A stretch of 64,000 nucleotides of DNA from Sphingomonadaceae bacterium. GTDB lineage: Bacteria; Pseudomonadota; Alphaproteobacteria; Sphingomonadales; Sphingomonadaceae. The translations under genes were made by a program, and so were the position numbers. The stretch lies in contig CANHQT010000003.1 in NCBI GenBank assembly GCA_947463325.1, positions 62,001-126,000 on the forward strand, given 5' to 3'. Position 1 is the first letter of the stretch. Each line of letters opens with the position of its first letter. Shown here in pieces: positions 358 through 9,194 of this stretch. The notes beneath the pieces are model-generated. The model searched no databases. It saw only the letters and a list, made by a program, of their open reading frames with translations, and was not told where the DNA came from.

Positions 358-1137
358 CTAGCCTTGCCCGCGCCCGCGTTCGATCACTGCACGGCGGCGC
401 GCCTCGACATCTGCTGCCTCCACCCGCGCGTTGGCCGCGCGTGAGCGGCGTTGTTCGATCTCCAGTGCTTCGCCGAAGCTTGCCGCATAGCCTTCGTTGA
501 TCAGCCCCTTGTAGGCGCCGAGCATCGCTGGATCGATGCCCGCCATATCCTGCGCCAGAGCCACTGCCGTCGGCAGCAGCGCATCGGGTGCAACGACGCG
601 GTTCACCAGGCCCCAACGCTCGGCTGTCACGGCGTCGATGAAATTGCCGGTAAAGGCGAGTTCCTTCGCCCGCCCGATACCGATCATCCGCGACAATTTC
701 TGGGAAAGGCCCCAGCCGGGCATGATGCCGACACGCGCGTGCGTATCAGCAAAGCGCGCGTTGGCCGATGCGATCAGCAGGTCGCAGGCGAGCGCGACTT
801 CAAACCCGCCGGTGATGGCAACGCCATTGACCGCCCCGATCACCGGCTTGGTGCACAGCTCGATCGCCTTGACCGGATTGTCATCCGCATCCTCGGCATT
901 GGCCGCGCCGAGGTTGGCCGTGTCGGCGCCCAATTCTTTGAGATCAAGGCCGGCGGTGAATGCCCGCGTGCCTGCCCCGGTCAGCACGACCGCGCGGATG
1001 CCGTCATCAGCCTGCACCGCGCGCATCGCAGCGGCCAGTTCGCGCCGCAATGCCTTGGACAGGGCATTCATCGCCTCCGGCCGGTTCATTGTGACGATGG
1101 CGACCGCGCCTTCACGGGTGATGGTGACAAGAGTCAT
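358..1137 (-). CDS. Enoyl-CoA hydratase/isomerase family (crotonase) protein
   Basis: 259 residues, full length for a crotonase. The N-terminus VAIVTMNRPEAMNALSK and the oxyanion-hole segment FTAGLDLKEL are characteristic. The GGFEVALACD segment keeps the first catalytic Glu of enoyl-CoA hydratases, but by manual alignment the second Glu is replaced (THARVGIMPG instead of a PEILxGxxPG pattern), so hydration may not be the reaction; isomerase or other crotonase chemistry is possible. I chose the ATG at 1137 because GGAG lies about 9 nt upstream; a GTG at 1146 is in frame. It lies 20 bp downstream of a second crotonase gene and is probably co-transcribed with it. Confidence 0.9.
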   Translation of the reverse strand: MTLVTITREGAVAIVTMNRPEAMNALSKALRRELAAAMRAVQADDGIRAVVLTGAGTRAFTAGLDLKELGADTANLGAANAEDADDNPVKAIELCTKPVIGAVNGVAITGGFEVALACDLLIASANARFADTHARVGIMPGWGLSQKLSRMIGIGRAKELAFTGNFIDAVTAERWGLVNRVVAPDALLPTAVALAQDMAGIDPAMLGAYKGLINEGYAASFGEALEIEQRRSRAANARVEAADVEARRRAVIERGRGQG

Positions 1138-1157
1138 GGCCTGCACTCCAGAACGGT

Positions 1158-1955
1158 CTAGCGACCCGCATAGTTTGGCGGGCGCTTTTCAAGGAAAGCC
1201 GCCATCGCCTCGCGATGATCCTCGGTCGCGGCGAGGATGACCTGTTGCCGGTCCTCCACCGCCATGGCAGCTTCAAGGCTGGGCGCATCGAGCGCGAGAT
1301 TAAGCGCCTGTTTGGATAGCCTCAGGCCCCAAGGCGCGGTCAGCAGCATCTCGTTCGCAAGTTCCATCCCGGCATCGAACAGCGCGTCTTCGGCCACAAT
1401 CCTGCTGACCAGGCCCCGCGCCAGTGCGCGCTCGGCATCAATGAAGCGGCCGGTGAGGATCAGTTCGGCAGCAAGGCTGGCGCCGACCAGGCGCGGCAGG
1501 AAATAGCTCGATGCCATGTCGCACCCGCCCAGGCCCACCTTGATATAGGCGGCGTTCATGCGGAGGCTCGGCGCGGCAATGCGCACGTCGCTTGCCAGCA
1601 GGAGCGAGAAACCGCCACCGCAGGCCGCGCCATGGCCAAGAGCGATGATCGGCTGTGGGCAGGCGCGCATCGCGCGGTAGATGTTGCCGATCGCGGTCTG
1701 TGTGGCGAGCGTGCGCAGCACCGGGGTCTCGTCACTCTCCGACCGTTCAGCCTTGATATCGAGGCCGGCGCAAAAGGCGCGCCCCGCTCCGCGCAGCAGC
1801 ACCACACGCACATCCGGGCGCGCCTTCAACCCTTCGAAATAGCCGGACAGAGCCGCTGTCAGAACCGGATCGAGGGCATTGAGGGCGTCGGGGCGATTAA
1901 GCGTTGCCACCTCGACCTCGCCGCGCCGTTCGACCAGCAAAACTTCTTCTGCCAT
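1158..1955 (-). CDS. Enoyl-CoA hydratase/isomerase family (crotonase) protein
   Basis: 265 residues. VATLNRPDALNALDP, FCAGLDIKAE and the GHGAACGGGFSLLLASD segment place it in the crotonase superfamily. The Glu expected in the GGxE position of true hydratases is Ser here, and the second site reads KVGLGGCDMASSYFLPRLVG, a pattern with Asp rather than Glu; so this is probably not a standard crotonyl-CoA hydratase. An in-frame extension to 2069 exists but would overlap the divergent gene; the ATG at 1955 follows an AGAGAGGGA ribosome site and gives a normal N-terminus. First gene of the leftward unit, divergent from the thiolase operon across a putative operator. Confidence 0.88.
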   Translation of the reverse strand: MAEEVLLVERRGEVEVATLNRPDALNALDPVLTAALSGYFEGLKARPDVRVVLLRGAGRAFCAGLDIKAERSESDETPVLRTLATQTAIGNIYRAMRACPQPIIALGHGAACGGGFSLLLASDVRIAAPSLRMNAAYIKVGLGGCDMASSYFLPRLVGASLAAELILTGRFIDAERALARGLVSRIVAEDALFDAGMELANEMLLTAPWGLRLSKQALNLALDAPSLEAAMAVEDRQQVILAATEDHREAMAAFLEKRPPNYAGR

Positions 1956-1982
1956 CGTCTGAATCCCTCTCTTCCCGCAACT

Positions 1983-2002
1983 TTCCGTTTGCGTAAACGG
2001 AA
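1983..2002. promoter_or_regulatory. 20-bp perfect inverted repeat, putative operator
   Basis: The 8-bp arms TTCCGTTT and AAACGGAA are separated by GCGT and are exact reverse complements. The repeat sits in the short (about 85-97 bp) gap between the leftward crotonase unit and the rightward CoA operon, where one bound dimer could control both. The size and symmetry fit TetR-type or MerR-type (LiuR/PsrA-like) regulators of acyl-CoA catabolism, but no regulator gene is in the window. The symmetry is seen; the function is inferred. Confidence 0.5.
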
Positions 2003-2052
2003 GGGTTTGCACAAAGTCGGTCAAAAGCCAACGACAGAGGATGGCAGGCAGG

Positions 2053-3492
2053 ATGAGCGGAGCAGGCATTCACGGATTCGGCGCCTATGTGCCGGTGACG
2101 CGTCTGCAACGCAGCGCAATCCACGCCTTCAACGGATGGTTCGCGGGCGGCCTCAAAGGGCTGGCCAAGGGTGAAAAGGCCGTTTCCGGTTGGGATGAAG
2201 ACCCGATCACCATGGCGGTGGAGGCAGCGCGCGACCTGTACGCTGATGGCGCGCGCAACGCCGATGCCGTGACCCTTGCTTCCACCACCCATGTCTTTGC
2301 CGACCGCGCCAATGCCGGTGTGGTGAAAGAGGCGCTCAATCTGGCTGATACGGTGATGACGATGGATGCCGGCGGCAGCCAGCGCTGCGGCACATCATCG
2401 CTGATTGCCGCGCTTGATGCCGCGGCTGCGGGACGGACGACCCTGCACCTGGCGGCAGAGCGCACAACACCCAAGCCGGCAAGCGAGCGCGAAATGACAG
2501 CGGGCGATGCCGCCGCCGCCATCCTTGTCGGACCCGGCCCGGGGCTCGCGCGGCTGATTGCCCACCACAGCGTCGCCATGGATTTCGTCGATCATTTCCG
2601 CGAAGCGGGTGAGGCATCCGACTATGACTGGGAAGCGCGCTGGGTGCGCGATGAGGGCTTTGCCAAGATCGCCGTACCCGCGCTCAAGGCAGCGCTCGCC
2701 AAGGCGGGGTTGGACGGCGGGCGCGTCGCGCGGCTGATCGTGCCGGTGGCCGTGCGCGGCATTCCGGAACTGCTCGCCAAGTCCGCAGGTATCGCGCCAG
2801 AGGCCATTGCCGACACGCTGGGCGCGGTGATCGGCCATGCCGGTGCCGCCCAGCCGACGCTGATGCTCGCCCACGCGCTCGAAACCGCAAAGACCGGTGA
2901 CATCCTCTGTCTGGTCGGCTTCGGGCAAGGGTGCGACATATTGCTGTTCGAAGCGACCGGGGCTGGGGCCCGCCCGCGGCTCGGCGTCTCGGGCTGGCTC
3001 GCCCGCCGACGCGAGTCCCACAATTATGGACAGTATCTCTTCCACCGCGATCTGCTGTCGCTCGAAAAGGGAATGCGCGCGGAGCATGACAGCAAAACCG
3101 CGCTGACCGCGCTGTGGCGCAACCGGAAAGCTGTGATGGCACTGGTCGGCGGCCGCTGCACACGCACCGGTACGATCCAGTTTCCGAAGACCGACGTCAG
3201 CGTCAATCCGAACGATCACGCCATCCGCACGCAGGAGGATTATCCGCTGGCCGATGTGCCGGCACGCATCCTCACCTATACTGCGGACGCGCTCACCTTC
3301 TCCCCCGATCCGCCGAGCTGTTATGGCAATATCGAGTTCGAAGGCGGCGGGCGGATGATGTCCGAATTCACGGATATCGCACCCGATGCGCTGGAGGTCG
3401 GCACCGACCTCAGGATGATGTTCCGCATCAAGAGTTTTGACGAGCTTCGCGGGTTCCGCCGTTACTTCTGGAAAGCGGCACCGGCGCATTGA
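2053..3492 (+). CDS. HMG-CoA synthase-like thiolase-fold protein fused to DUF35 OB-fold domain
   Basis: 479 residues. Residues about 1-310 are a ketosynthase/HMG-CoA-synthase-like fold: AGGSQRCGTSSL gives the nucleophile Cys (about residue 112) and VIGHAGAAQP and VGFGQGCDILLFE are the C-terminal half-site. Residues about 360-475 are a DUF35 OB-fold (SCYGNIEFEGGGRMMSEFTD). By manual alignment the HMGCS catalytic Glu is Thr (STTHVF), the catalytic His is Pro (IVPVAVRG), and the Asn of KAS III is His in GHAGAA. The DUF35 zinc ribbon keeps only one of four Cys. True HMG-CoA synthase activity is therefore unlikely. An ATG at 2041 is also possible, but its AGAGG abuts it. First gene of the operon, 36 bp before a thiolase. 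Confidence 0.8.
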   Translation: MSGAGIHGFGAYVPVTRLQRSAIHAFNGWFAGGLKGLAKGEKAVSGWDEDPITMAVEAARDLYADGARNADAVTLASTTHVFADRANAGVVKEALNLADTVMTMDAGGSQRCGTSSLIAALDAAAAGRTTLHLAAERTTPKPASEREMTAGDAAAAILVGPGPGLARLIAHHSVAMDFVDHFREAGEASDYDWEARWVRDEGFAKIAVPALKAALAKAGLDGGRVARLIVPVAVRGIPELLAKSAGIAPEAIADTLGAVIGHAGAAQPTLMLAHALETAKTGDILCLVGFGQGCDILLFEATGAGARPRLGVSGWLARRRESHNYGQYLFHRDLLSLEKGMRAEHDSKTALTALWRNRKAVMALVGGRCTRTGTIQFPKTDVSVNPNDHAIRTQEDYPLADVPARILTYTADALTFSPDPPSCYGNIEFEGGGRMMSEFTDIAPDALEVGTDLRMMFRIKSFDELRGFRRYFWKAAPAH

Positions 3493-3498
3493 AATTGA

Positions 3499-3514
3499 CC
3501 CTCTCGGTAGAGAG
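3499..3514. repeat. Short intercistronic palindrome
   Basis: CCTCTC and GAGAGG flank a 4-nt GGTA loop between the HMGCS-like gene and the thiolase, just upstream of the thiolase ribosome site. It could be an mRNA-stabilising hairpin or a degenerate copy of the CCTCTCCCG-type palindrome at 52401. There is no T-run, so it is not a terminator. Confidence 0.35.
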
Positions 3515-3528
3515 GATGGGAGAGCAAG

Positions 3529-4734
3529 ATGGCACGTGGCATCAGGGACAAGGTGGCGATCCTCGGCATGGGCTGCGCCAAGTTCGGCGAACGGTGGGAC
3601 AAGGACGCCGACAGCCTGATGCTGGAAGCCTATGAAGAAGCAATCGCCGACGCCGGCATTGAAACCAGCCAGATCGACGCGGCCTGGCTGGGCGCCGCCT
3701 TCGATGCGGTCAACATCGGCCCCTCGGGCATTCCGCTCGCCATGGCTCTCAGGCTCAACGACATCGGCGTCACCAAGGTCGAGAATTACTGCGCGAGCGG
3801 GACCGAGAGCTTTCGCGGCGCTGTCTATGCCGTCGCGTCAGGCGCGGCGGACATCGCGCTCGCCATGGGCGTCGAGAAGCTCAAGGACACGGGCTATGGC
3901 GGGCTGCCCGTCCGCACCCGCGGGACAACGCATGACATGATCGGCGTCACCGGTTCCGCCCCAGGCAATTTCGCACAGCTCGCCTCTGCCTATCGCGCGC
4001 GTCATGGCGTCGGAGCGGACGACCTCAAGCGGGCGATGGCGCATGTCTCGGTCAAGAGCCACGCCAATGGCGCAAAGAACCCCAAGGCGCATCTGCGCAA
4101 CACCATCACCGAAGAGCAGGCGCTCAACGCACCGATGATCGCGGCCCCGCTCGGCCTGTTTGACTGCTGCGGCGTTTCCGACGGGGCAGCCTGTGCCATC
4201 GTCACCACCCCGGAAATCGCCAAGAGCCTCGGCAAGACGGACATCGTTACGGTGAAGGCACTCCAGCTCGCCACCTCCAACGGGTGGGAGCTGCAGGGGT
4301 CGGGATGGAATGGTGCTTATTTCCACACCACCCGCATCGCCGCGGCCAAGGCCTATCAGGAAGCCGGCATCACCGATCCCCGGAACCAGATCAGCCTCAC
4401 CGAAGTGCATGACTGTTTCTCCATCACCGAGCTGGTGACGATGGAAGACCTCCACATCAGCCGCGAGGGCGAAGCCTGGCGCGACGTGCTCGACGGCATG
4501 TTCGATGCCGACGGAAAAATCCCCTGCCAGATCGATGGCGGCCTCAAATGTTTCGGCCATCCGATCGGCGCATCGGGCCTGAGGATGATTTACGAAAATT
4601 ATCTGCAGTTGCTCGGCCGCGCAGGTGACCGTCAACGTGCCGAACAGCCGGTCTTTGCCCTGAGCCACAATCTCGGCGGCATGCCCAATCAGAATGTCAG
4701 TTCCATCGCCATTGTCGGGATGATGGGGGCTTAA
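3529..4734 (+). CDS. Thiolase family protein (SCP2/lipid-transfer type)
   Basis: 401 residues. The segment VENYCASGTESF carries the acylated Cys (residue 88), CFGHPIGASGLRMIYE carries the GHPxGASG motif, and HNLGGMPNQNVSS is the C-terminal Gly loop in which the usual second Cys of degradative thiolases (CxG) is absent, as in SCP2/sterol-carrier-type thiolases. These enzymes cleave or form beta-ketoacyl-CoA, often with a DUF35 partner; here a DUF35 domain is supplied by the gene immediately upstream. The ribosome site GGGAGAG precedes the ATG. Likely the C-C cleavage step of the pathway encoded by this operon. Confidence 0.88.
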   Translation: MARGIRDKVAILGMGCAKFGERWDKDADSLMLEAYEEAIADAGIETSQIDAAWLGAAFDAVNIGPSGIPLAMALRLNDIGVTKVENYCASGTESFRGAVYAVASGAADIALAMGVEKLKDTGYGGLPVRTRGTTHDMIGVTGSAPGNFAQLASAYRARHGVGADDLKRAMAHVSVKSHANGAKNPKAHLRNTITEEQALNAPMIAAPLGLFDCCGVSDGAACAIVTTPEIAKSLGKTDIVTVKALQLATSNGWELQGSGWNGAYFHTTRIAAAKAYQEAGITDPRNQISLTEVHDCFSITELVTMEDLHISREGEAWRDVLDGMFDADGKIPCQIDGGLKCFGHPIGASGLRMIYENYLQLLGRAGDRQRAEQPVFALSHNLGGMPNQNVSSIAIVGMMGA

Positions 4735-4775: not shown

Positions 4776-5954
4776 ATGATGAACCCGGGTATGGATGCAG
4801 ATGTCTTTGAAGCCTTTCTTGACCAGCTGAAGCGCTATGTGCGCGAGCGGCTGATCCCGGCTGAAGAGGATGTCATCGCGAACGATCGCATCCCCGATGA
4901 CATTCTGGACGAAATGCGCGCCATGGGCCTGTTCGGCATCACCATCCCCGAGGAGTTCGGCGGTGCGGGCATGAACATCAGCCAGTATATCGAGACGGTA
5001 AAGCATCTTTCCTACGCGGCGCCGGCCTATCGCAGCACCATGTCGATCAACGTCGGCATGACCGGTTCAGCCATCAAGAATTTCGGCACACCCGAACAGA
5101 AATCCGAATGGTTGCCCCGCATCGCGTCTGGTGAGATCGCCTGCTTCGGCCTCACCGAACCGGGCAGTGGATCGGATTCCGCGGCCATGCAGACAATGGC
5201 TGTGCGCGACGGCAATGGCTGGCGGCTCAACGGCACCAAACGCTACATCACCAATTCCCCGCACGCGAAGATCGGCCTGATCATGGCGCGCACATCCAAG
5301 GATGCGCTGCCCAAGAACGCCCATGTTTCAGCCTTCATCGTCGACATGACGACGCCCGGCATCAGCATTGGCAGCCCCGACAAGAAAATGGGCCAGTCCG
5401 GCGCGCATATCGCCGACGTCATCATGGAGGATGTCCACATTCCGGCCGATGCATTGGTCGGCGGCGAGGAAGGGCGCGGTTTCCAGATCGCGATGCAGAG
5501 CCTCGACAACGGGCGCCTCTCCGTCGCGGCGATGAGCGTCGGCATGGGCCGCCGCATCCTCGATACGGCGGTGCGCTATGCCACCGAACGCAAGGCATTC
5601 GGGGAACCCATCGCCAATTTCCAGCTCATCCAGGCGATGCTGGCGGACAGCGATGCCGAGCTTTACGCCGCAGAATGCATGATTTCGGACGCCTGTGCGC
5701 GCGCCGACCGGGGCGAGGCGATCCTGCGGAAAGCCGCAGCCGCAAAGATGTTTGCATCCGAAACCTGCGGCCGGGTCGCTGACCGCTGCGTACAGGTGCA
5801 TGGCGGCGCGGGCTATCTTGCCGAATATGCTGCCGAGCGCTTTTTCCGCGATGCCCGCATCCTGCGCATTTATGAAGGCACCACACAGATCATGCAGCTC
5901 CAGATTGCCAAGCATCTGCTGCGTGAATTCGAGCGCGAAGGCGCGGTGTGGTAG
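4776..5954 (+). CDS. Acyl-CoA dehydrogenase
   Basis: 392 residues, a normal length for the family. The FAD- and substrate-binding signature CFGLTEPGSGSDSAAM, the TKRYITNSPHAKIGLIMA strand, the QVHGGAGYLAEY segment and the C-terminal RIYEGTTQIMQLQIAKHLL are all typical; the Glu in YEGT is the expected catalytic base. It introduces an alpha-beta double bond into an acyl-CoA and passes electrons to ETF. An AGAGGAAG ribosome site precedes the ATG. It lies in the catabolic operon between the thiolase and the CoA-transferase; a second, divergent paralogue follows two genes later, so the pathway probably has two dehydrogenation steps or two substrates. Confidence 0.93.
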   Translation: MMNPGMDADVFEAFLDQLKRYVRERLIPAEEDVIANDRIPDDILDEMRAMGLFGITIPEEFGGAGMNISQYIETVKHLSYAAPAYRSTMSINVGMTGSAIKNFGTPEQKSEWLPRIASGEIACFGLTEPGSGSDSAAMQTMAVRDGNGWRLNGTKRYITNSPHAKIGLIMARTSKDALPKNAHVSAFIVDMTTPGISIGSPDKKMGQSGAHIADVIMEDVHIPADALVGGEEGRGFQIAMQSLDNGRLSVAAMSVGMGRRILDTAVRYATERKAFGEPIANFQLIQAMLADSDAELYAAECMISDACARADRGEAILRKAAAAKMFASETCGRVADRCVQVHGGAGYLAEYAAERFFRDARILRIYEGTTQIMQLQIAKHLLREFEREGAVW

Positions 5955-5962
5955 GACGCTGA

Positions 5963-7156
5963 ATGTACCCCCTGCTAACCGGCCTCTCAGTCATAGAGGC
6001 CTCCTCTTTCGTCGCATCGCCGACCGCCGGCCTTTATTGTGCACAGATGGGCGCGGACGTGATCCGCGTCGATCAGATCGGCGGTGGACCCGATTTCAAC
6101 CGCTGGCCACTCGCTGCCAATGGTGCCTCGCTCTATTGGGAAAATCTCAACCGCGCCAAACGCTCGGTCGCGCTGGACCTGAGCTCGGGTGAAGGCCGCG
6201 AACTGCTGGCAGAGCTGGTGCGCGCCACCGGCCAGTGCATCACCAACTTTCCGGTCGGCAGCTTCATGGCCCATGATCGGCTGGCGGCCGGGCGCGCGGA
6301 TCTCATCACCGTCCGCGTCATGGGCCTCGCCGATGGCGGACCGGCGCTCGATTATACAGTCAATTGCGCGGTCGGCTTTCCTGACCTCACTGGGCCCGGG
6401 CCCGAACCGGTCAATCATGTGCTTGCCGCCTGGGACCTGCTCACCGGCGCCTATGCCGCCTTTGCCCTGCTCGCCGCGCTGCGCCGCCGGGAAATGACCG
6501 GCGAAGGGGGCGAGGTGCGCGTGCCGTTGATGGACGTTGCGCTTGGCACCGCCGCCAATCTCGGCATGTTCGCCGAGGTGCTGACCGGCGGCGGCAACCG
6601 CGAGCGACTGGGTAATGCCGTCTATGGCGCCTTCGGCCGCGATTTTCTTACGCGGGACGGGGTCAGGATGATGATCATGGCCATCACGGCGCGGCAATGG
6701 ACTGCGCTAGTTTCCGTCCTCGGCATCGAAGCAGAGGTCGCAGTGATCGAAACGGCGCGCGGCACCAGCTTTGCCAAGGACGAAGGCGAGCGGTTCCGTC
6801 ATCGTGACGCGCTGTTCCCGCTTGTTGAAGCGCGCGTCGTGCAGCGCGACCATGCCGAACTCGCCGCCGCGCTCGATGCTGCCGGCGGCTGCCATGGCGC
6901 ATACCGCACGATGCACGAGGCCGCGACCGACCCCGCGCTCGCTGCCAATCCGATGTTTGGCGCGAGCCCCAATCCGAGTGGGGAAAGCTATCCCGCAGCC
7001 GGCTCCTTCGCGACGCTGCCGGGGCTCGACCGGCTGCCGCCGCGGCCTGCCCCGCAGCTCGGCCAGCATAGTGAAGAGGTGCTGGCCGAACGGCTCGGCC
7101 TATCTGGCGGCGCGATTGCCGCCCTCATCGACAGGAAGATAGTGGCTCAAGCATGA
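5963..7156 (+). CDS. CoA-transferase family III (CaiB/BaiF-like)
   Basis: 397 residues. The N-terminal GLSVIEASSFVASPTAGLYCAQ and NLNRAKRSVALDLSS segments are standard for family III CoA-transferases, and VPLMDVALGTA carries the Asp (about residue 191) expected to form the aspartyl-CoA anhydride intermediate. Such enzymes activate carboxylic acids by moving CoA from a donor thioester. The stop overlaps the next start as ATGA, which argues for translational coupling. In this operon it probably activates the growth substrate or moves CoA between the two carboxylates of a dicarboxylic intermediate; the substrate cannot be told from sequence. Confidence 0.9.
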   Translation: MYPLLTGLSVIEASSFVASPTAGLYCAQMGADVIRVDQIGGGPDFNRWPLAANGASLYWENLNRAKRSVALDLSSGEGRELLAELVRATGQCITNFPVGSFMAHDRLAAGRADLITVRVMGLADGGPALDYTVNCAVGFPDLTGPGPEPVNHVLAAWDLLTGAYAAFALLAALRRREMTGEGGEVRVPLMDVALGTAANLGMFAEVLTGGGNRERLGNAVYGAFGRDFLTRDGVRMMIMAITARQWTALVSVLGIEAEVAVIETARGTSFAKDEGERFRHRDALFPLVEARVVQRDHAELAAALDAAGGCHGAYRTMHEAATDPALAANPMFGASPNPSGESYPAAGSFATLPGLDRLPPRPAPQLGQHSEEVLAERLGLSGGAIAALIDRKIVAQA

Positions 7157-8304
7157 CCGAGACATATGCCGATATCCGCGAGGCAGTGGCCCGCCTGTGC
7201 GCCGATTTTCCCGGCCCCTATTGGCAGGACAAGGACCGGGCCCGCGCCTATCCGACCGAATTTGTCGAGGCGTTGACGAAGAGCGGGTTCCTGTCCGTCC
7301 TCATTCCGGAGGAGTTTGGCGGGTCCGGCCTGCCGCTGTCCGCCGCCGCCGCGATTTTGGAGGAGATCCAGCGGCAGGGGTGCAATGGCGGGGCCTGCCA
7401 TGCGCAAATGTATGTGATGGGCACCGTATTGCGCCACGGCAGCGAGGCGCAAAAGCGCGAGTGGTTGCCCCGCGTCGCATCGGGCGAGCTGCGCCTGCAG
7501 GCGTTCGGCGTCACCGAGCCGACCAGCGGCACTGACACGCTGAGCCTCAAGACCACGGCCAAACGCGATGGCGATGCCTATGTCATCAACGGCCAGAAGA
7601 TCTGGACCAGCCGCGCCGAGCATAGCGACCTCATGATCCTGCTCGCCCGCACCACCCCGCGCGAGGAGGTGGCGAAGCGGACCGACGGCCTCAGCGTCTT
7701 CATTGTCGACATGCGCGAGGCAGTGGGCAACGGCCTCACCATCCGGCCCATCGAAACGATGATGAACCACTCGACCACCGAGGTCTTCTTCGACAATCTG
7801 CGCGTGCCCGCCGCCAATCTGATCGGGGAGGAGGGCCAGGGGTTCCGCTACATCCTGTCAGGCATGAATGCCGAACGGCTGCTGATCGCTGCCGAATGTG
7901 TTGGCGATGCAAAGTGGTTCATCGAAAAGGCCAGCAATTATGCACGCGAGCGCGTGCTGTTCGGCCGGCCGATCGGCCAGAACCAGGGCGTGCAATTCCC
8001 CATCGCCCGCGCCTATGCGCAGACACGTGCGGCGGATCTGCTCGTTGCCGAGGGCTTGCGCAAATATGAGGCGGGCGAAAATTGCGGCGAGGAAGCGAAC
8101 ATCGCAAAGATGCTCGCGGCAGAGGCCAGCTGGGCCGCGGGCGAAGCCTGCATCCAGACGCACGGCGGCTTCGGCTTTGCTGCGGAATATGACATCGAGA
8201 GGAAGTTCCGCGAGACGCGCCTCTATCAGGTCGCGCCGATCAGCACGAACATGATCCTTTCTTATGTGGCGGAGCATGTGCTGGGACTGCCGAGGAGCTA
8301 TTGA
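7153..8304 (+). CDS. Acyl-CoA dehydrogenase family protein, variant active site
   Basis: 383 residues. AFGVTEPTSGTDTLSLKT, GQKIWTSRAEHSDLMILLAR and QTHGGFGFAAEYDIERKF mark the family. At the C-terminus the usual RxYEG(T/S) pattern reads RLYQVAPISTNMIL, so Gln stands where many acyl-CoA dehydrogenases have the catalytic Glu; the base may be elsewhere or the reaction may differ. It overlaps the CoA-transferase by ATGA and the following hydratase by TGATG, so three consecutive genes are translationally coupled. It is clearly divergent from the acyl-CoA dehydrogenase at 4776, which suggests a separate step rather than a duplicate. Confidence 0.88.
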   Translation: MTETYADIREAVARLCADFPGPYWQDKDRARAYPTEFVEALTKSGFLSVLIPEEFGGSGLPLSAAAAILEEIQRQGCNGGACHAQMYVMGTVLRHGSEAQKREWLPRVASGELRLQAFGVTEPTSGTDTLSLKTTAKRDGDAYVINGQKIWTSRAEHSDLMILLARTTPREEVAKRTDGLSVFIVDMREAVGNGLTIRPIETMMNHSTTEVFFDNLRVPAANLIGEEGQGFRYILSGMNAERLLIAAECVGDAKWFIEKASNYARERVLFGRPIGQNQGVQFPIARAYAQTRAADLLVAEGLRKYEAGENCGEEANIAKMLAAEASWAAGEACIQTHGGFGFAAEYDIERKFRETRLYQVAPISTNMILSYVAEHVLGLPRSY

Positions 8305-9194
8305 TGAGCCAGTGGCAGGAGTGGATCGGGCGCAGCCATGAGCAGAGCGAGCAGCTGACGCCCGCGCTGGTGCGCCGCCATCGCGCGACGCTCGATCTCT
8401 CGCCCGATGATCCCGCGCCGCTCGCCGGAATCCACTGGTGCCTAAACCTGCCCGAAGCCGCCTCTGCCGAACTGGGCGAGGACGGGCATCCGCGCCGCGC
8501 AGGCTTGCCAGCGGGAAAGGCTGAGGAGGGCCGCGACGTTGCCGGCAGTTTCCTGCCGCCCATTCCCATGCCGCGCCGCATGTGGGCGGCGAGCGAGGCC
8601 GAGTTTCTGGCGCCGATCCCGGTGGGCGCGACTGTCACCCGCACCAGCACCATCGCGGCTATCGAGGAAAAGCAGGGCGCCAGCGGTGCCCTCGCCTTCG
8701 TGACACTCGATCATGCGGTGAGCGCCGATGGCGTGCCGGTGGTGCGGGAAAAACAGACTCTGGTCTATCGCGAACCGGCGATCGTTACCGATGCCGCACC
8801 GTCCGCTCCAGCGCCGGAGCGCGCCGATGATGGGCTGGTGAAGGCGCTCAAACTCTATGACCATCAGCACAGTCTCACCCCGGACGAGGCGCTGCTGTTC
8901 CGTTTCTCCGCGCTGACATTCAACACCCACCGTATCCATTATGATGCGCCCTATGCGACGGGGATTGAGGGCTATCGCGGCATCGTCGTCCACGGCCCGC
9001 TGACCGCGACGCTGCTGCTCAACTGGGCGAGCGGGCTTTACGGCCCGATCCGGCGCTTCACCTTCCGCGCGGTTTCCCCTGCGATTGCCGGCGAGCCCCT
9101 CACCCTCGCCGCACGTCAGGAGGACGGCCACATCATCCTCGCCGCGCACGGCCCGGATGGGCGAGAGTGTGTGAAGGCGAGCGCAAGCCTCTGA
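8304..9194 (+). CDS. MaoC/FAS1-like dehydratase domain protein (HTD2/mesaconyl-C4-CoA hydratase-like)
   Basis: 296 residues with a double hot-dog layout. The N-terminal half (about 1-150) is a FAS1-type dehydratase-like domain ending in VREKQTLVYRE; the C-terminal half holds the hydratase motif FRFSALTFNTHRIHYDAPYA, in which Asp/His of the MaoC pair are recognisable (THRIHYD), and GIVVHGPLTATLL. The closest named family is mesaconyl-C4-CoA hydratase/3-hydroxyacyl-thioester dehydratase 2, which acts on branched or dicarboxylic CoA esters. The ATG at 8304 overlaps the preceding TGA. Its pairing with a family III CoA-transferase recalls mesaconate/itaconate-type CoA chemistry, but this is inference. 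Confidence 0.82.
   Translation: MSQWQEWIGRSHEQSEQLTPALVRRHRATLDLSPDDPAPLAGIHWCLNLPEAASAELGEDGHPRRAGLPAGKAEEGRDVAGSFLPPIPMPRRMWAASEAEFLAPIPVGATVTRTSTIAAIEEKQGASGALAFVTLDHAVSADGVPVVREKQTLVYREPAIVTDAAPSAPAPERADDGLVKALKLYDHQHSLTPDEALLFRFSALTFNTHRIHYDAPYATGIEGYRGIVVHGPLTATLLLNWASGLYGPIRRFTFRAVSPAIAGEPLTLAARQEDGHIILAAHGPDGRECVKASASL

Follow-up and report, generated by a model that had tools for sequence, protein, structure and literature searches.

In PhlACB, the KAS III-like subunit PhlA lacks the catalytic Cys and Glu and is catalytically silent, and the chemistry is done by PhlC (PMC6392133). Pavkov-Keller et al. equated Cys114 and Glu82 of HMG-CoA synthase (HMGCS) with Gly115 and Cys83 of PhlA (PMC6392133). 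PhlACB, CsATase and MucABC (PDB 5m3k, 9skh and 9vbo) each combine an inactive KAS III-like module, a DUF35 module and an active thiolase-fold module, as the gene pair described here appears to do. However, they are encoded by three separate genes, whereas here there are two, the KAS III-like and DUF35 parts being fused. The same three modules make up the archaeal acetoacetyl-CoA thiolase/DUF35/HMGCS complex (PDB 6esq). As this complex is described in PMC6392133 and PMC12329534, its DUF35 protein is a free subunit, and its HMGCS is an active enzyme that retains Cys114 and Glu82; in our protein, DUF35 is fused and both residues are lost.

The steroid aldolases Sal-Shy and Ltp2-ChsH2 resemble our locus in that a DUF35 domain on the chain of another enzyme holds a thiolase-fold partner (PMC12329534). 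Sal, unlike a thiolase, is a retro-aldolase without the nucleophile Cys, and the domain joined to DUF35 there is a MaoC hydratase (PMC12329534). The benzoylsuccinyl-CoA thiolase BbsAB (PDB 7pxp) also consists of a DUF35 protein and a thiolase, but BbsA has no KAS III-like domain, in contrast to our fusion. Already in 2010, fusions of DUF35 with thiolase-superfamily, SDR, SCP2 and hot-dog domains were noted, as was the active/inactive pair of phlABC (PMC2954200).

Here, we analyzed a 64,000-nucleotide stretch of DNA from a Sphingomonadaceae bacterium (the window). We propose, with a probability of roughly three in four, that two of its genes specify one enzyme, in which an active catabolic 3-ketoacyl-CoA thiolase sits on a dead KAS III-DUF35 scaffold, in a two-gene form of the PhlACB/archaeal-type architecture. 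To the earlier work we add that the KAS III-DUF35 fusion has lost the catalytic triad family-wide, that its thiolase is obligate, that its setting is catabolic and that an orphan gene of estrogen degradation can be linked to it.

Gene organization and domain composition

The fusion gene had been described as an open reading frame starting at 2053 and joining an HMGCS-like domain to DUF35. It is a real single frame with both parts, but it opens upstream of this position, and 2053 is a later in-frame ATG (Table 1). The next gene does encode a thiolase, as proposed in the same description, and its product scored 690 bits against NF004810 (cut-off 403). The thiolase frame opens 36 bases past the fusion stop codon. 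An inverted repeat, CCTCTC-GGTA-GAGAGG, lies between the two genes (window 3500-3515) and is perhaps an mRNA hairpin.

Table 1. Features of the fusion-thiolase locus (positions in the window unless given as residues)
Feature	Position	Strand	Remarks
KAS III/HMG-CoA-synthase-like + DUF35 fusion	2041..3492	+	single open frame, 483 aa; alternative start 2053
Predicted KAS III-like pseudoenzyme domain of the fusion	about residues 7-306		
DUF35 module of the fusion, degenerate zinc ribbon + OB fold	3112..3492 (about residues 358-483)	+	
Thr82 codon, HMGCS catalytic Glu position	2284..2286	+	alignments
Gln114 codon, HMGCS/KAS III nucleophile Cys position	2380..2382	+	alignments
Pro235 codon, HMGCS catalytic His position	2743..2745	+	alignments
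His266 codon, KAS III Asn position	2836..2838	+	alignment
Thiolase, 401 aa	3529..4734	+	NF004810; Cys88, His294-Asp-Cys296, His344 intact
Acyl-CoA dehydrogenase, class III CoA-transferase, acyl-CoA dehydrogenase, MaoC/FAS1-type dehydratase	4776..9194	+	remainder of the catabolic operon; profile matches
Two enoyl-CoA hydratase genes, divergent	358..2069	-	

Within the fusion, ACP_syn_III_C (PF08541) matched residues 219-298 above the Pfam cut-off, and the DUF35 OB domain (PF01796) matched residues 408-462 with 30.3 bits (cut-off 27.1); the zinc-ribbon match was weak and under its cut-off. The OB fold typical of DUF35 (PF01796/PF12172) was found both by the Pfam score and as strands in the AlphaFold model. 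This model of the fusion alone reached a pLDDT of 87.9 and a pTM of 0.90, and all of its ten best Foldseek matches were KAS III-like chains, from CsATase, PhlABC, MucABC or the archaeal complex. By sequence, the closest PDB relatives of the fusion were PhlA-type subunits and the archaeal HMGCS 6esq_I; PhlA was the best match of the KAS III part, and the C-terminal part weakly matched the DUF35 partner 6esq_E. A joint model was calculated from alignment rows with an in-frame read-through of both genes, and it predicted fusion and thiolase as one read-through chain with a pTM of 0.60 and a low pLDDT over much of the thiolase. The gene make-up is that of the PhlACB type: a KAS III-like protein without Cys and Glu, a DUF35 module (here fused) and a thiolase-fold partner are encoded together.

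The thiolase and its linkage to the fusion

The residues Cys88, His294-Asp295-Cys296 and His344 were invariant in 50 aligned thiolases. In the steroid aldolase Sal, which belongs to the same superfamily, Gly replaces the nucleophile Cys (PMC12329534). Since this Cys is kept in our protein, a true, active thiolase is predicted from its sequence. In the PDB, it was closest to the acetoacetyl-CoA thiolase from the archaeal complex (6esq), with a benzoylsuccinyl-CoA thiolase subunit among the further matches.

The pair might instead be a C-acyltransferase or retro-Claisen enzyme that acts on ring or phenolic substrates in the manner of PhlACB, and not a linear 3-ketoacyl-CoA thiolase. The best structural matches are indeed PhlABC and MucABC, and some relatives adjoin ring-hydroxylating dioxygenases and CoA ligases. 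However, the window thiolase is closer to the CoA-using archaeal acetoacetyl-CoA thiolase and to BbsB than to PhlC, which is CoA-independent and acts on phloroglucinols. It has a second Cys in HDC296F, whereas the active site of PhlC contains Tyr298 (PMC6392133), and its catabolic acyl-CoA operon includes acyl-CoA dehydrogenases and dehydratases but no dioxygenase. We consider such an acyltransferase unlikely.

Linkage was assessed by counting full-length fusions in 289 Alphaproteobacteria genomes. Fusions were present in 51 of them, and the thiolase was found in the identical 51. For all 55 fusion genes, the thiolase lay downstream on the same strand (within 250 bp for 49 and within 2 kb for the others), and two thiolase copies occurred without a fusion. 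By the preliminary description, its reading would be refuted by homologues in which the two domains never accompany a thiolase; in this sample a thiolase always adjoined them. In a second set of 53 loci, which included the window, genome contigs and plasmids, the thiolase was near the fusion in 52, and the sole exception was at a contig end. The genes that intervene in the few spaced loci had no common theme; by eye, they included a haloacid-dehalogenase-like ORF (L065) and an epimerase-like ORF (L021).

Further relatives came from genomes or MAGs of Beta-, Gamma- and Deltaproteobacteria, and plasmid-borne ones from Rhodococcus, Mycobacterium avium and Streptomyces. The haloarchaeon Halomarina has three distinct adjacent genes for the KAS III-like, OB-fold and thiolase proteins, presumably the unfused arrangement. 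The pair is common in bacterial degradation clusters, where it is often misnamed as an OB-fold protein, HMG-CoA synthase, KAS III or a hypothetical protein. Three Alphaproteobacteria genomes of about 1.4 Mb (G049, G174 and G270) retain the pair, so it appears to matter even in small genomes.

Active-site residues of the KAS III/HMGCS-like domain

The residue assignments of Table 1 were obtained by aligning the fusion with PhlA and its Chromobacterium homologue and with chain I of 6esq, and a profile-profile alignment (hhalign) gave the same columns for the Cys-Glu-His triad (Gln114, Thr82 and Pro235). PhlA has Gly and Cys in the corresponding columns, which matches the published equivalence (PMC6392133). 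In the preliminary description, the HMGCS nucleophile Cys was taken to be kept in the motif QRCGTS, but both alignments place Gln114 at this position, with C116 following two residues later. Together with the fit to the published PhlA residues (PMC6392133), this shows that reading to be two residues off. As a candidate nucleophile, Cys116 was rejected on the basis of the multiple and profile-profile alignments and its absence in relatives (Ala in 68 and Cys in 4 of 80). The proposed replacements of Glu by Thr and of His by Pro were borne out by both kinds of alignment, and that of the KAS III Asn by His was recovered in the alignment with PhlA and 6esq_I. None of the sequence or profile alignments restored a Glu and a His to the active site.

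In the family alignment of 80 relatives, Cys was present in the nucleophile column in 0/80, Glu in the catalytic Glu column in 0/80, and His in the catalytic His column in a single relative. The nucleophile column held Gln in 56/80 and Leu, Met, Arg or other residues in about 30%. Conservation of the three substitutes was found for Thr82 (Thr in 76/80) and Pro235 (Pro in 67/80), which extend family-wide, but not for His266, which is found in part of the family, the column being D, E or H in most members. Given the absence of Cys and Glu from the triad columns in 80/80 relatives, the domain is, as judged from these alignments, no HMG-CoA synthase, and it is very unlikely to be an enzyme at all. 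The loss of the nucleophile in all 80 speaks against a rebuilt active site with a Cys chemistry of its own. By analogy with PhlA in PhlACB, which has likewise lost the catalytic Cys, this loss makes the fusion most likely a pseudoenzyme scaffold of the adjoining thiolase.

In KSQ decarboxylases, which occur in polyketide loading modules, Gln occupies the nucleophile site. It is conceivable that the KAS III-like domain has acquired new chemistry, based on C116 or on Gln as in a KSQ-like decarboxylase that feeds the thiolase. The frequent Gln in the nucleophile column, the conserved T82 and P235 and the presence of C116 in the window protein would fit this. Nevertheless, C116 is rarely Cys and mostly Ala in the relatives, Gln is often swapped for other residues, the required His and Asn are missing in nearly all 80, and PhlA, the nearest relative of known structure, is catalytically inactive (PMC6392133), which makes such an activity very unlikely. 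A functional HMG-CoA synthase-thiolase pair, although annotated as such in places (including PMC7793797) and weakly matched by HMGCS models, can practically be dismissed in view of scores far under the curated cut-offs (121 bits vs. 244 for NF003274 and 78 vs. 353 for TIGR00748), the lost triad and a source genome that has no HMGCS-family match above cut-off, yet encodes the DXP synthase of the MEP route. As originally put forward, the pair probably forms a bacterial thiolase-DUF35 assembly not making HMG-CoA, a reading well supported by the obligate pairing, the intact thiolase site, the loss of the HMGCS residues and the lack of a genomic HMGCS-family match.

Proposed mechanism

In the enzyme that we propose, a 3-ketoacyl-CoA thiolase on a dead scaffold, the thiolase would be the sole catalytic subunit. 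Cys88 would accept the acyl group, and Cys296 and His344 would take care of the proton and of CoA as the leaving group. The conserved residues and gene context suggest that the reaction is the cleavage of a 3-ketoacyl-CoA in a beta-oxidation-like pathway. The KAS III/HMGCS-like domain, a putative pseudoenzyme in which the Cys-Glu-His triad has become Gln-Thr-Pro, may dimerise and clamp the thiolase via the fused DUF35, as homology indicates. Likewise by homology, it may help, together with DUF35, to form a shared CoA/acyl cavity, as PhlA and PhlB do for PhlC. With the KAS III-like and DUF35 parts fused, a PhlACB-type architecture would be fixed at a 1:1:1 stoichiometry in two genes. We infer that the two proteins form a physical complex, that the reaction runs in the direction of thiolysis and that the substrate is a branched or ring-derived acyl-CoA.

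The strong conservation of Thr82 and Pro235 counts against a pure scaffold, and the old pocket could have retained a role. One tentative and rather doubtful option is that the old KAS III pocket with Thr82 and Pro235 serves as a second acyl/CoA chamber, which determines what substrates the thiolase accepts and, in SDR-SCP2 fusions, hands the 3-ketoacyl-CoA directly from the dehydrogenase to the thiolase. If true, a dead active site would have been repurposed for channelling within a catabolic enzyme.

Zinc ribbon of DUF35

The window protein has C373, T376, S387 and D392 at the four zinc-Cys positions. The earlier statement that one of four Cys is kept is true of this protein, but the loss holds for part of the family. 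The zinc-ligand Cys were present in 54 of the 79 relatives having a DUF35 module, and the loss was limited to a few clades; it is therefore best seen as a lineage trait outside the shared mechanism of the family. On a family tree built without the ribbon columns, four changes of the zinc ribbon were needed, two of them forced by well-supported branches. The separate losses repeat a C-to-T and C-to-S pattern and mostly spare the first Cys. In the window, this concerted ligand loss spans 3157-3216 (residues 373-392), and the same C-T-S substitutions are seen in at least two lineages. Repeated concerted loss of zinc ligands in a seemingly still functional DUF35 provides a natural experiment on the purpose of zinc.

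Relation to the estrogen degradation cluster

The estrogen (edc) cluster of Novosphingobium tardaugens, a beta-oxidation-like cluster, contains an "HMG-CoA synthase" beside a thiolase (EGO55_13555/13550), which the authors could not place in estrogen catabolism, a condensation being senseless there (PMC7793797). The gene order is the same as in the edc cluster at a locus on plasmid p3 of Novosphingobium sp. ES2-1 (L081:8010-10564). There, the "HMG-CoA synthase" proved to be a KAS III-DUF35 fusion whose four sites hold Thr, Leu, Ser and Phe and no catalytic residue, and the thiolase passes NF004810. This fusion shares about 30% identity with the window protein but differs from it in keeping most of the zinc Cys. 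By analogy with this like-ordered locus, a role as thiolase scaffold would account for the N. tardaugens protein and assign a function to the orphan edc gene (PMC7793797). Read in this way, such proteins would no longer add a spurious mevalonate or condensation step to degradation pathways. We found no literature on this two-gene family beyond PMC6392133, PMC12329534, PMC7793797 and PMC2954200.

Catabolic context

Neighbourhoods vary between lineages. SDR genes were found at 30/53 loci at a 60-bit threshold that includes distant paralogues, and genes for acyl-CoA dehydrogenase, MaoC and class III CoA-transferase were also neighbours. Similar steps make up the BbsAB pathway, which involves a CoA-transferase, an acyl-CoA dehydrogenase, a hydratase and an SDR. 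The order of the window operon (thiolase, acyl-CoA dehydrogenase, CoA-transferase, acyl-CoA dehydrogenase, MaoC-type dehydratase) is repeated on a plasmid of Sphingomonas paeninsulae, with an additional SDR and MaoC upstream, and is partly kept in other loci. The NCBIfam matches of the CoA-transferase and dehydrogenases in the window were all under the cut-offs, so no substrate can be named from them. The members beside dioxygenases and CoA ligases indicate that substrates differ within the family.

In two deltaproteobacterial MAGs (L030:6833-9580 and L033:1-2682), the KAS III-DUF35 chain is longer, at about 900 aa, and also includes an SDR and a sterol-carrier domain (SCP2) beyond DUF35. An SDR fused to this chain fits a 3-ketoacyl-CoA being passed to the thiolase and ties the fusion to the dehydrogenase step before thiolysis. 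In some sphingomonads, the pair is succeeded by genes for a MaoC dehydratase and for a CoA ester lyase (L082:11101-11994 and L080:11074-11937), possibly for a step of the methylmalyl- or citramalyl-CoA type.
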